Positions 20,724 through 25,697 of a stretch of DNA of 27,331 nucleotides are shown piece after piece. The translations under genes were made by a program, and so were the position numbers. Under the pieces are notes generated by a model that saw only the letters and a list, made by a program, of their open reading frames with translations, was not told where the DNA came from and made no database searches. The stretch's first letter is position 1. The number at the start of each line of letters is the position of its first letter. This DNA comes from a virus: the IMG/VR virus record IMGVR_UViG_3300025913_000094, positions 1-27,331 of that record; one strand, 5' to 3'.

Positions 20724-21091
20724 GAGCGATCCATCCCGAAGTGCCGGCGCAGTTGTTGCACATCCCGGTTTGCATTGAGCTGTTCTCGCCATTCCTCGGG
20801 AGTTTTCGTTGGCCTCGGCAGCGCCCTGAAAGTTTCGAGCGGCGTCAGCGCATTCAGGTGTTCGAGAAACAGTTTCGGCGCAGGCCACGACGTGCAACTT
20901 TCGCCGAGCCTGCGAAACGCCTCGCGCATGAGCGGCACGTCGCGCCGTTCGCTCCAGCCGCGCGAGGGGATGAGCGCTTCCATCCACGCAGCGACCGTTC
21001 CCGCGACCATTTCCGCCGATGGCGTGTGGTCAAGGCTCAGGCAGAACAGGCGCTGGAAGCCGCTGCTGATTTCGTTCTGGATCCACGACAT
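20720..21091 (-). CDS. Hypothetical replication-region protein
   Basis: A 123-aa helical protein (MSWIQNEISSGFQRLFCLSLDHTP; then VAGTVAAWMEALIPSRGWSERRDVPLMREAF). Its place after the DUF1376 protein and its fold-like pattern recall proteins that stand in for replication accessory protein P, but I cannot support more than position. The ATG lies 62 nt inside the preceding gene, so it is read in another frame there. Confidence 0.6.
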   Translation of the reverse strand: MSWIQNEISSGFQRLFCLSLDHTPSAEMVAGTVAAWMEALIPSRGWSERRDVPLMREAFRRLGESCTSWPAPKLFLEHLNALTPLETFRALPRPTKTPEEWREQLNANRDVQQLRRHFGMDRS

Positions 21092-22034
21092 GGGAATTGC
21101 TCTTGAGGGATTCGAGGATGTGCATCGCCGCCACGGTTTTGCCTGGTGGTTTCTTGCCGTTGCTTCGCTGTCGGGTGCGATCGGCTGCTGCCATGAGCCA
21201 TGCCGCTGGCTCGCTCACGTCGTCGGCCTCGGCTTCGCGAGGATCACCGCGGTACCGATGTCGCCCCGCATGCTTGCGCAGCTTCCCGAGCAGGCTGCGG
21301 GCGGGTTTGTCGGGAATGCCCTTGCGGAGCAGGAAGGCGAGTCCGGTTCCCCAGATTGGATCGGGTAGCCCGGGAGGGTCAGCCGGCGCTTCTGCGCCAG
21401 ACCGAAGGTCTGAATGCTCTTGCTCTTGATCTTTAAGATCCTCTCCCTTCCCTTCCCTTCCCTTGGAAGGGGTTTCCCGGGGGACAGAGGGGGGACAATC
21501 TTCGATGTCTCCCGGGACTGATGGGCTGTTGTCCCCGGGGACAACCAGAGGAACTACACAGGTTGTCCACAACTCCGATCCGGTCGCAAGAAGGTGTGTC
21601 TCCCATTGTTCGAAGGTCGGGTAAACGGCATCGGTTCGCGACCGTTGGGCTGCCTTCTTGATGCGCGCGCATTCAGTGCGCCACCGTTGCTGCAGGCGCT
21701 GCGCCCATGCTTCGAGCGCCTTCTCCGCGACGACCGGGTGATACCAGCGGCCGTCGTCGCATTGCACCCATCCATGGAGTGCTTCGGTACGGTGTTTCTT
21801 CCACTCTTTCGTCGATCGTCCGAACCCAGCGTATTGCGCGAGCAGTACGTCATCGTCGGGAAGTGACGCTGCGGGCACCTGGTGCCATGCAACGCACCAA
21901 AGCAGCACAGCGCAACGGAATCCCTCGCCAGATGCGTGCGAAACGATCCTGCTGTCGCGCAGGCGTACAACGTCGAGCGGCATGTAGTGGAAGTCGCGCA
22001 GGTCAACGTTCGCGGGGACAAGGGGTTCGGTCAT
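21030..22034 (-). CDS. DUF1376 protein, likely replication initiator
   Basis: A 334-aa protein. Residues about 10-110 match the DUF1376 pattern (DLRDFHYMPLDVVRLRDSR; EGFRCAVLLWCVAWHQVPAASLPDDDVLLAQYAG; HGWVQCDDGRWYHPVVAEKALEAW), a winged-helix-like N-terminal domain of phage replication proteins at the position of lambda O. A Pro/Ser/Glu-rich linker (about 165-210) follows, partly encoded by a pentanucleotide repeat, then a C-terminal helical domain with LFRKGI-like pattern and AAWLMAAADRTRQ. Start MTEPLVPANVDLRDF at an ATGA overlap. It probably binds the origin or recruits the host helicase; this is inferred from family and place. Confidence 0.78.
   Translation of the reverse strand: MTEPLVPANVDLRDFHYMPLDVVRLRDSRIVSHASGEGFRCAVLLWCVAWHQVPAASLPDDDVLLAQYAGFGRSTKEWKKHRTEALHGWVQCDDGRWYHPVVAEKALEAWAQRLQQRWRTECARIKKAAQRSRTDAVYPTFEQWETHLLATGSELWTTCVVPLVVPGDNSPSVPGDIEDCPPSVPRETPSKGREGKGEDLKDQEQEHSDLRSGAEAPADPPGLPDPIWGTGLAFLLRKGIPDKPARSLLGKLRKHAGRHRYRGDPREAEADDVSEPAAWLMAAADRTRQRSNGKKPPGKTVAAMHILESLKSNSHVVDPERNQQRLPAPVLPEP
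21446..21465. repeat. (CCCTT)4 microsatellite inside the DUF1376 gene
   Basis: Four perfect tandem CCCTT units on the plus strand (AAGGG on the coding strand) encode part of the SKGREGKGED linker. Five-base units change the reading frame when one is gained or lost. Confidence 0.85.
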
Positions 22035-22360
22035 GTCACGCTCCGATAAACCCACGCGCGAATCCCCTTCCCTTCCGGCAGCGCGCGAACGATGCGGCCG
22101 ATCCCTTGCAGTCGCGTCAGCACGCGGTTCGTCTTCCAGTAGTCCCAGCGCATGGTTTCTTGAACCTCGGTGAACGTGCGCTCGCGCTCGGCGATCATGT
22201 TGGCGACGGCGTTGCAGGTGGCGATGAACGCCTTCCTGCGCTCGCGCATGCTGGATTCGATGATGGGTTCGGGCTTGCGCGCGGACTCGCCGGCAGGAAG
22301 CGGCGCGAGCGGTGCGTGGCGATTGCGGCAGCGGCCGCCGATGGTGTTGGCGAGGATCAT
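22031..22360 (-). CDS. Small winged-helix-like protein
   Basis: A 109-aa basic protein. The N-terminal 40 residues are Arg/Pro-rich; residues about 65-100 (RTFTEVQETMRWDYWKTNRVLTRLQGIGRIVRAL) read as a winged helix with a turn before KTNRVLTRL and a beta wing. It probably binds DNA in the replication module. The starts and stops overlap neighbours by ATGA at both ends. Confidence 0.62.
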   Translation of the reverse strand: MILANTIGGRCRNRHAPLAPLPAGESARKPEPIIESSMRERRKAFIATCNAVANMIAERERTFTEVQETMRWDYWKTNRVLTRLQGIGRIVRALPEGKGIRAWVYRSVT

Positions 22361-22674
22361 GCCGCGCGCCTGGCGTTGTGCTGCAACCGCGTCTCGAACA
22401 GGCCGGCGCGATCGGGGAATGTGTCGGCGTACAACCGCGCCATGTCCGGCGCGTAGTTGTTGTTGACCTTGAACTCGCCGCCAACTTCCGCGAGCGCGGT
22501 TTCATGGCGCAAGTATTCGATGATCGTGCGCGCCGACCAGTGGCGATGACCGCGACTCCAGACCTTGTCGGCTTCGGCGCAGAACCGATCCCAGATCGCA
22601 GGGTTCGCAGCAAGCCACGACGCGAAGTCGTTTCGGAACTTGCTGCGGTCGAAGGTGAGCGGAAGCTGTGTCAT
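22357..22674 (-). CDS. Conserved phage protein of unknown function
   Basis: A 105-aa protein with the motif order NPAIWDRF, SARTIIEYLRHET, FKVNNNYAPDMARLY and LFETR, a combination I know from small proteins spread widely in lambdoid phages and prophages (usually unnamed). The acidic and aromatic pattern and NNNYA segment may be a binding site. It overlaps the methyltransferase stop by ATGA. Confidence 0.7.
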   Translation of the reverse strand: MTQLPLTFDRSKFRNDFASWLAANPAIWDRFCAEADKVWSRGHRHWSARTIIEYLRHETALAEVGGEFKVNNNYAPDMARLYADTFPDRAGLFETRLQHNARRAA

Positions 22675-23492
22675 GCGACCGCCTGCGCTTCGGCGTTAGC
22701 GAACGCGAATGCCGGTTGCGTTGCATGGATACGTGCGTTGGCGATCGCGGCATAGGCCGGATCAAGTTCAATGCCATTGAAACGGAAACCTTCGGCCCGT
22801 GCCGCGCGACCAGTCGAACCGCTGCCGGTGAATGGATCGAGGATCAAGCCGCCTGGCGGTGTCACGAGTCGGCACAGCCAGCGCATCAGATCATGTGGCT
22901 TGACGGTCGGGTGGTTGTTCGCGCGCGGCGTGCTATGGCTTCCCGGAATATCCCAGCACCGCCCATCGCCACTCGGGCCATGCACCTTTGTTGGCTCTAC
23001 TCCTTCACAGCCCCAGTTCCGATCCTCGCGGTCGGCTTTGGCGCAATAGAAGAATCGTGCCGCGTTTCCGTTGTCGCCGCGCGGAAGGCTCGCTACCGAT
23101 CGCCCCATGTCTCCGTAGGCGTTCTTGAACGGGCTACTAGGCTCTGCTCCGGTGACTGCTCCGGACTGTCCGGCGCTATCGGGGAAGACGGCAAGAACTT
23201 CATCGCTGCCGTCGTGCACGAGATTGGCCGGCCACCTGCCGGCCGGGTCACCACCACGTTGCCCGGGCGTCGCTGCGGAGTTCGTCGCTCCGGATGCGGC
23301 GTAGCGTCGGGCGGCGCTGGCCTCGCCGTCCCTGCCGCGACCTTCGTTGGCGTGCATCGCGTCCCACGTACGGCCTGCGCCGGTTCTCAACGCTTCGTCC
23401 GTCTGGATCCTGCACCCGTCGATATTCAGAGCACCCGTGCCGAATCGCTGCACGTTCGATGCGACCGTCCCGATCAGGGGCTTACGCGCCAT
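22671..23492 (-). CDS. DNA methyltransferase, C-terminal part (after the frameshift)
   Basis: The frame is open from about 23540 and joins the N-terminal part at a G10 tract; the ATG at 23492 (MARKPLIG) is the first start inside it. It carries the target-recognition region and, near the end, the AdoMet-binding motif LDPFTGSGSTGRAARA followed by FNGIELD, after the catalytic motif of the other part (beta-class order). The wording GYGTALKPAWEPIIMARKP, which is nearly invariant in related enzymes, is readable only across the junction. The joined protein would have 390 aa, and the total span of 1174 nt is exactly one base too long. It would methylate adenine N6 or cytosine N4. As it stands in this sequence, it is probably not made or only as a fragment. 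Confidence 0.8.
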   Translation of the reverse strand: MARKPLIGTVASNVQRFGTGALNIDGCRIQTDEALRTGAGRTWDAMHANEGRGRDGEASAARRYAASGATNSAATPGQRGGDPAGRWPANLVHDGSDEVLAVFPDSAGQSGAVTGAEPSSPFKNAYGDMGRSVASLPRGDNGNAARFFYCAKADREDRNWGCEGVEPTKVHGPSGDGRCWDIPGSHSTPRANNHPTVKPHDLMRWLCRLVTPPGGLILDPFTGSGSTGRAARAEGFRFNGIELDPAYAAIANARIHATQPAFAFANAEAQAVA

Positions 23493-23844
23493 GATGATCG
23501 GCTCCCATGCGGGTTTCAGCGCGGTGCCATACCCCCCCCCCGATGTTCTTGGACTTCGGGAAACCCGAGCCGTACACCCACATCAGCGTGTCGCGAATCT
23601 CCCAGCCGGCATCCTCGATCGCGACCATCAGTCGGTGAAAGGTGCGCGTGCCGCCGAATGCGAGCAGGTGAGCGCCGGGCTTGGCGACGCGCAGCATTTC
23701 CTGCCAGAAACGAGTGCCTGGCACAACACGATCCCAGTCCTTGACCATGAAACCGATGCCGTACGGCGGGTCGGTCACGATCGCATCGACTGACGCGGGA
23801 TCGAGCGTTGGCAGGATGTCCAAGCAATTGCCAATGGCGATCAT
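23482..23844 (-). CDS. DNA methyltransferase, N-terminal part (ends after the frameshift)
   Basis: Starts at the ATG at 23844 (ATGA overlap with the CII-like gene). The 120-aa product begins MIAIGNCLDILPTLDPASVDAI and has the catalytic motif DPPYGIGF (residues 25-32), then LMVAIEDAGWEIRDTLMWVYGSGFPKSKNIGG. After the G10 tract the frame gives a foreign tail (VWHRAETRMGADHHGA) and stops. Removing one G puts it into the frame of the C-terminal part. Such enzymes in phages usually protect their DNA against host restriction. This could be a sequencing or assembly slip, a real lesion, or phase variation. Confidence 0.8.
   Translation of the reverse strand: MIAIGNCLDILPTLDPASVDAIVTDPPYGIGFMVKDWDRVVPGTRFWQEMLRVAKPGAHLLAFGGTRTFHRLMVAIEDAGWEIRDTLMWVYGSGFPKSKNIGGGVWHRAETRMGADHHGA
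23532..23541. repeat. G10 homopolymer (C10 on plus strand) causing the methyltransferase frameshift
   Basis: Ten consecutive C on the plus strand. On the coding strand AAC-ATC-G10-TA reads out of frame; nine G give AAC ATC GGG GGG GGG TAT GGC and the expected protein. Long G tracts are classic slip sites. Confidence 0.95.
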
Positions 23845-24236
23845 CGCCGCGCCTTCGTCGTGCCAAGACCAGCCGCAGCCAACATCGCCGGCAGTCCTTG
23901 CGCGAACTCCGCCAACGTCGCGAGCGCGTGCTGTTTCTGCGCCTCGGGATCGGACAGGAACTTGTCGATCAGATAGAAGATCGGCGTGTAGTCGCCGGTC
24001 TTGGTGAGGTAGTCCTCGAACAGCTCCAGCCCGACATCGCGCCTGCGATCGCCAGTCCCGCCGGACAGTTTCTCCGACAGCTTCGACGGCGACTCGTCCA
24101 GCTTCACCGCAACGCGATCAAGGCCGCGCGAATACACGCCAGCGGCAACGCACGCGCGCAGCGATATGTGCCGCGCGCTGATGCCTGGCTCAAGGCTGAG
24201 CGTCAATTGGGATGCTTGGGGATGAATCGTTCCCAC
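23841..24236 (-). CDS. CII-like phage regulator
   Basis: A 131-aa protein that sits after cro and before the replication genes, in the place of lambda cII. Residues about 25-62 (LRACVAAGVYSRGLDRVAVKLDESPSKLSEKLSGG) form a helix-turn-helix of the phage CII/CP76 kind, and residues about 66-95 (DVGLELFEDYLTKTGDYTPIFYLIDKFL) resemble the second part of that family ('...yl..TGD..pi.yL'). The start is GTG at 24236, chosen because AAGGGGA stands about 6 nt upstream. It could activate lysogeny promoters or act as a second repressor. The family is likely, the direction of regulation is not known. Confidence 0.62.
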   Translation of the reverse strand: MGTIHPQASQLTLSLEPGISARHISLRACVAAGVYSRGLDRVAVKLDESPSKLSEKLSGGTGDRRRDVGLELFEDYLTKTGDYTPIFYLIDKFLSDPEAQKQHALATLAEFAQGLPAMLAAAGLGTTKARR

Positions 24237-24721: not shown

Positions 24722-24943
24722 TCAGGCTGCCCGCTCGGTGGATTGCGGGGATGGAACGAACACGTCAGGCCGCAGCAGTTCAAGAAACTGACGGCGCGCA
24801 TCAGGAAATCCGGTCTCTTTCCATCCCGTGACGGATGGTGGCTTGACCTTGCACAGCCTCGCGACCTTCGTCGTCCCGCCGAGAAGTTGGATCACCCGGC
24901 GAGCCTCCGCAGCTTTCAATTCAATTGCGTCCATATTTCGCAC
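24722..24943 (-). CDS. cro: Cro-like repressor
   Basis: A 73-aa protein divergent from cI. Residues about 20-45 (LLGGTTKVARLCKVKPPSVTGWKETG) are a helix-turn-helix whose recognition part K-x-P-P-S-V-T-x-W is the same as in the CI-like protein, so both should read the same operators. I choose the GTG at 24943 because AAGGAA lies 8 nt before it; for the ATG at 24934 the spacing is too long. That ribosome site lies inside operator O1. Such proteins turn off cI and reduce early transcription during lytic growth. Confidence 0.82.
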   Translation of the reverse strand: MRNMDAIELKAAEARRVIQLLGGTTKVARLCKVKPPSVTGWKETGFPDARRQFLELLRPDVFVPSPQSTERAA

Positions 24944-24994: not shown

Positions 24995-25008
24995 TTAGGC
25001 TTCCCTAA
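24995..25008. promoter_or_regulatory. Operator O3 (TTAGGCTTCCCTAA)
   Basis: A perfect TTAGG/CCTAA inverted repeat, centred at 25001.5. Its last base is the A of the cI start codon, so a bound repressor would block cI transcription or early elongation. Confidence 0.78.
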
Positions 25009-25697
25009 TGGACACGACTTTTGCTCAACGATTGGCCCAAGCGATGGAGGGCCCGCCTAAGGTCTCTCAGGCCGCCCTAGCCCGCGCCTGTGGCGTCAAG
25101 CCGCCCTCAGTAACCGATTGGCTGTCGGGGCGCACTAAGACGCTTGCTGGGCCGAATCTGTTGAAGGCTGCGCGATTCCTTGGAGTGTCGCCAGACTGGC
25201 TCGCTTCGGCGAAAGGGCCGATGCACTTGAAGGGAGCTAACCCGTCACGCTATCAAATCGCGGAAGCTGGCGAAGATGACGCGGTAGAAATCCCGTTGGA
25301 CACAACAAGAGGATCATGCGGCGGTGGATCATTTAATCACGAGGCCGAAAAGCTCCCGCCGTTGTTGAAGGAGCCTTCGTGGTTCCGGCGCTACAAGATC
25401 AAGCCTAAGGATGCGCTCGCGGTGTGGGCTGATGGCGACAGCATGGCCGACTTTATTGTGGACGGCGATATTGTTGTCTTCGACAAGTCGAAAGTAGCGC
25501 CTCGCTCAGGCCAGATATTTCTTATCGAACACCCAGACGGATTGCGCATCAAGAAGTTACGCCGAGAACTAGGTGGGACGTGGGTTTTAGAGAGCAACAA
25601 CGCGGACAAAAGGCGGTTCCCGGATGAGCGAATTACCGAGGAGCATGCTGACTTGCTTGTGATCCGCGGCGAGTTCGTTTACCGGCAAGGGGGATAG
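25008..25697 (+). CDS. cI: CI-like repressor with LexA-type autoprotease domain
   Basis: A 229-aa prophage repressor. Residues about 19-43 (KVSQAALARACGVKPPSVTDWLSGR) are a helix-turn-helix. The C-terminal S24 part has a cleavage-site-like Cys104-Gly105, the catalytic Ser145 in DGDSMADF and the Lys182 in LRIKKL; DGDIVVFDKS and LIEHPDGLRIKKL are typical. It should be cleaved on RecA activation, so the prophage is probably SOS-inducible. The leader is short, with only a weak AGG before the ATG, which starts inside operator O3. It is transcribed away from cro together with the next gene. Confidence 0.92.
   Translation: MDTTFAQRLAQAMEGPPKVSQAALARACGVKPPSVTDWLSGRTKTLAGPNLLKAARFLGVSPDWLASAKGPMHLKGANPSRYQIAEAGEDDAVEIPLDTTRGSCGGGSFNHEAEKLPPLLKEPSWFRRYKIKPKDALAVWADGDSMADFIVDGDIVVFDKSKVAPRSGQIFLIEHPDGLRIKKLRRELGGTWVLESNNADKRRFPDERITEEHADLLVIRGEFVYRQGG

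Follow-up and report, generated by a model that had tools for sequence, protein, structure and literature searches.

The gene at positions 22671 to 23844 of the window, by which is meant the whole 27,331-base stretch of viral DNA that was analysed, raises the question of whether a run of ten Gs that divides a DNA methyltransferase into two reading frames can switch the enzyme on and off, or whether it holds one G too many. The window is a single assembled IMG/VR virus record without host genome. The parts of the gene are as follows.

22671..23844, minus strand: whole methyltransferase gene
23482..23844, minus strand: N-terminal frame of 120 amino acids, with DPPY (motif IV) at residue 25
23532..23541, minus strand: G10 tract (C10 on the plus strand), encoding three glycine codons if nine Gs are read
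22671..23534, minus strand: C-terminal frame, with GTALKPAWEPI, a variable region and FTGSGSTG (motif I) near its end

The ATG of the methyltransferase overlaps the stop of the upstream gene and its TGA overlaps the downstream start, in both cases as ATGA. Overlaps of this type are typical of co-translated operon genes. The N-terminal frame contains about 104 residues homologous to the family, followed by out-of-frame residues up to a TAA, and the C-terminal frame carries GYGTALKPAWEPIIMARKP at its first codon. When the GTAT after nine Gs is read as one codon, a single frame of 390 amino acids is obtained. Thus, the gene is built as the sequence-only reading had described it, with the G10 run, the two frames and the DPPY and FTGSGSTG motifs all found in place, and the 390-residue methyltransferase that it predicted on removal of one G is indeed encoded. 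The repaired junction that it proposed also agrees with the family, since the nine-G junction, FPKSKNIGGGYGTALKP, is of the family type and equal in length to FPKSRNIGNGWGTALKP (L026) and FPKSKNLEGGRGTALKP (L013). The product of the ten-G gene, in turn, ends at 120 amino acids, upstream of the AdoMet motif FTGSGSTG. The C half is open across 287 codons, and the break is therefore recent, reversible or not real.

By homology, the gene product is a beta-class DNA methyltransferase and an ordinary member of its family. DPPY (motif IV) precedes FxGxG (motif I), and the Pfam profile N6_N4_Mtase (PF01555; cut-off 26.7 bits) is matched by the N half (36.8 bits), the C half (63.9 bits) and the joined reading (103 bits). 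The two halves cover complementary parts of this 221-position profile, namely positions 1-91 and 141-220, and the joined reading matches phrog_67 at 1.5e-70. All 43 columns that are invariant among 34 relatives are present in the nine-G reading, 18 of them before the run and 25 after it; the ten-G reading loses these 25, including the AdoMet motif. No second lesion was seen in the methyltransferase gene, and the run is its only break. The predicted model of the read-through protein (mean pLDDT 68, core above 90) has a methyltransferase fold like that of CcrM and RsrI. Its best matches among solved structures are CcrM, M.RsrI and M.BceJIV, all of which are N6-adenine methyltransferases (Foldseek E 9.5e-14 to 2e-11). 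We take the DPPY of this protein to point to adenine as the target base, and the enzyme probably acts on N6-adenine.

The tract itself is exceptional in its surroundings. No other G/C run of the window exceeds six bases, the next longest being one G6, and runs of at least ten appeared in 7, 0 and 1 of 300 simulated windows each under Markov orders 1, 2 and 3, respectively. Only three G/C runs of at least ten were counted in 2.58 Mb of viral loci, a viral background of about 0.03 per 27-kb window or 0.0014 per 1.17-kb gene. GGG makes up 12% of the glycine codons here, and three in succession would be expected at about 0.2%. The run lies in the linker between FPKS and GTALKP, which is hypervariable in relatives and ranges from a few (about six) to about 170 residues. 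In the read-through model, residues 93-102 form a low-confidence loop joining two strands, and the run adjoins this loop. Three glycines, encoded by nine rather than ten Gs, fit because the linker is variable and the length equals that in L026 and L013; a G tract would be easily tolerated at the junction because relatives differ freely in the length and sequence of this linker. The linker of one relative (L002) holds a helix-turn-helix-like insert (HTH_31, E 3.8e-10), with a weaker match in L009, and those of L008 and L162 carry inserts of similar size with no clear Pfam match.

Relatives were compared for the frame and for the tract. Among viral contigs, where 121 N-C pairings were compared and some loci recur, the two halves share a frame in 119; they do so too in all 24 bacterial-genome loci compared at the junction. 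The two exceptions, a short tandem duplication at L049:3550-3700 and an A5 near position 5530 of L104, are not at a G run and are likely to be assembly errors or lesions. No G/C run longer than six was present among the relatives whose junctions were listed, and the tract was found at the junction in none of about 145 relatives. A scan of IMG/VR with the pattern G8+TRBGGNACNGC returned six matches, all unrelated and none of them a family member, and an IMG/VR pattern scan for G8 at most 30 nt from GTALKP returned none. A pattern scan of 395 Luteimonas-family genomes for G7 within 30 nt was also empty. The idea that the tract is common to the family was rejected on these scans and junction comparisons, and the search for it in related methyltransferases that the sequence-only reading had proposed as a check came out negative in all relatives found, the nearest being 50-60% identical. 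No close relative carrying the methyltransferase gene was found among them. Because they stand at this distance, the relatives are uninformative on whether the tract varies within the phage's own lineage.

Long runs do occur elsewhere in the family. In one member from a metagenome contig, a C10 (L058:1146-1155), which is one of the three background runs of at least ten, lies near the 3' end of the methyltransferase gene. With ten bases the frame of this gene enters the next one, and with nine it would end in DGQLSIFGSELEATA with an ATGA overlap; the gene may be a second one prone to slippage, or the run may reflect an assembly error of the same type. Two other members contain G8 runs just upstream of motif I (L101:4974-4981 and L027:2612-2619), apparently in frame. 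The idea that methyltransferase genes are enriched in long G/C runs was considered and dropped, as the three runs of at least eight in 200 kb of such genes, set beside 18 in the remainder of the same loci, are too few to claim an enrichment.

The neighbouring genes place the methyltransferase in a phage regulatory region.

21030..22022, minus strand: DUF1376 replication protein (phrog_22470)
22357..22674, minus strand: downstream 105-residue phage protein of unknown function (phrog_13625)
23841..24236, minus strand: upstream CII-like regulator (phrog_101)
24722..24943, minus strand: Cro-like repressor (weak P22_Cro match)
25008..25697, plus strand: lysogeny repressor with HTH and S24 peptidase domains

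The terminase and portal have P22-like relatives, and the phage is temperate and P22-like, with the methyltransferase in its early/immunity operon. The term prophage, used in the sequence-only reading, is not borne out here: on this viral contig, which carries genes for a repressor and for Cro-like and CII-like proteins, no flanking host sequence was seen. CII-like relatives occur in 7 of 395 Luteimonas-family genomes, and a methyltransferase of 58% identity is also found in that family; together they suggest, short of proof, a host in the Luteimonas family. In a phage whose CII-like protein is 97% identical (L282), nucleotide similarity stops at the start position of the methyltransferase. 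At exactly that position, in the region L282:5001-6094, L282 has an unrelated gene of 233 amino acids, which makes this place in the early operon a point of gene exchange. Two further phages (L283 and L284), which have other neighbours in common with the window, show no methyltransferase of this kind next to the shared gene. The search for close relatives through the neighbouring genes thus yielded L282, L283 and L284, all without the methyltransferase at that place. Phages with the same neighbours do without the gene, which marks it as a mosaic, accessory element. PADLOC gave no match in any of the three flanking ORFs scanned and hence no cognate endonuclease, and for this reason the methyltransferase appears to be an orphan; the families that flank it are CII-like, unknown and replication, not those of a restriction-modification system.

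The strongest rival to phase variation is that the phage has nine Gs and an intact methyltransferase, one G having been inserted by assembly or base calling. It is ranked so because of published error rates: in metagenome contigs from 10x Illumina data, about 1% of genes contain a homopolymer error (PMC3277595). The source here is a single assembled virus record, no other G/C run in the window comes near this one in length, the gene is broken nowhere else, and L058 likewise has a ten-base run where nine would be in frame. Against this, homopolymer errors depend less on run length with Illumina than with 454 (PMC3277595), and a non-exhaustive look at the main genes of the window noticed no other frame break. 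A consensus-length error is nearly as likely as phase variation. If it is the explanation, the longest homopolymer of the contig is where false frameshifts fall, and the nine-G tract of the phage would still be prone to slippage.

Decay of the gene, in which a frameshift not under selection became fixed in a dispensable accessory gene, would agree with its absence from phages with the same neighbours, but there is no second lesion and all invariant residues are intact on both sides of the run, which makes a pseudogene quite improbable. It is also very unlikely that the halves are both used as they stand, either through recoding (a +1 or -2 ribosomal shift or RNA polymerase slippage) or as two parts that assemble after stop and restart at ATGGCGCGTAA. 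Known cases are a -2 shift in the decoding of phage Mu and herpesvirus thymidine kinase, of which enough product is made by low-level frameshifting at a run of Gs (PMC5009743). In the window, however, no stimulatory RNA structure beyond chance was found around the run (z +1.39), the shift site is present in no relative, and the 119 in-frame pairings have the halves fused; the locus thus has neither the conserved shift site nor the stimulatory structure of a programmed ribosomal frameshift. Restart would use two further features.

22671..23492, minus strand: possible re-initiated C-terminal ORF of 273 amino acids
23502..23506, minus strand: GGGAG, Shine-Dalgarno-like, 9 nt before the internal ATG and also coding for the conserved W-E

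The internal ATG at 23492 lies 8 nt before the TAA stop of the N-terminal frame (23484-23482), and re-initiation at this ATG overlapping the stop is possible on paper. Both the ATG and GGGAG fall within codons of the conserved W-E-P-I-I-M stretch and need no explanation beyond chance.

We therefore lean, tentatively and at somewhat less than an even chance, towards a slippage-prone G run in an accessory orphan methyltransferase that is on with nine Gs, off with ten and phase-variable in the population. In this mechanism, the run in its length-tolerant linker loop would readily undergo slipped-strand mispairing. The 390-residue enzyme would come from nine Gs (or 6 or 12), and the ten-G form, if a real allele, would stop at residue 120, before the AdoMet site, and be off or nearly off. 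Slippage during replication would switch the gene off and later return it to on, and the on form would mark the DNA of the phage (and of a lysogen), with a presumed effect on phage protection or host methylation. The locus has a long coding repeat whose length sets the frame of an otherwise intact gene; the repeat is not kept in orthologues. Phase variation of the methyltransferase is thus plausible, and the population switch of the sequence-only reading is possible: the beta-class gene, intact apart from the tract, the temperate phage and the slippable run all speak for it, and the lack of the tract in every relative found speaks against it. Since none of these relatives carries the tract, there is no sign of selection for it, and we do not claim that it was selected as a switch.

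If the variation is real, one phage stock would contain both marked and unmarked particles. A further proposal, which we regard as improbable, is that slippage between G9 and G10 in a phage-borne orphan methyltransferase makes each burst a mix of modified and unmodified phage as a hedge against two kinds of host, one restricting unmodified DNA and the other attacking DNA that is modified. Phase-variable methyltransferases are known from bacterial genomes. No clear case of a phage-borne methyltransferase with poly-G phase variation was found in the open-access papers searched.

The predicted fold is common to CcrM, M.RsrI and M.BceJIV, although these are only 16-20% identical to the window enzyme and have another variable region. 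The phage methyltransferases of phrog_67 are closer, and include a copy in a Luteimonas saliphila contig (L149, 53% identical) and one in Pseudomonas phage PP9W2 (55% over the C half). While none of them has a G tract at the junction and nearly all are in a single frame, they share with the window enzyme the domain order, the invariant residues, the hypervariable FPKS...GTALKP linker and the phage setting. With regard to the tract, one report describes G/C runs of at least seven as the usual substrate of phase variation in Campylobacter (PMC4965091), and another includes methyltransferases among the genes that vary through such runs (PMC4889913). The window enzyme differs from Campylobacter cj0031 and the mod genes of Neisseria and Helicobacter in being a phage orphan whose tract is not conserved in relatives, but in those genes, as here, a single-base run within the coding sequence sets whether a full-length or a truncated enzyme is encoded.
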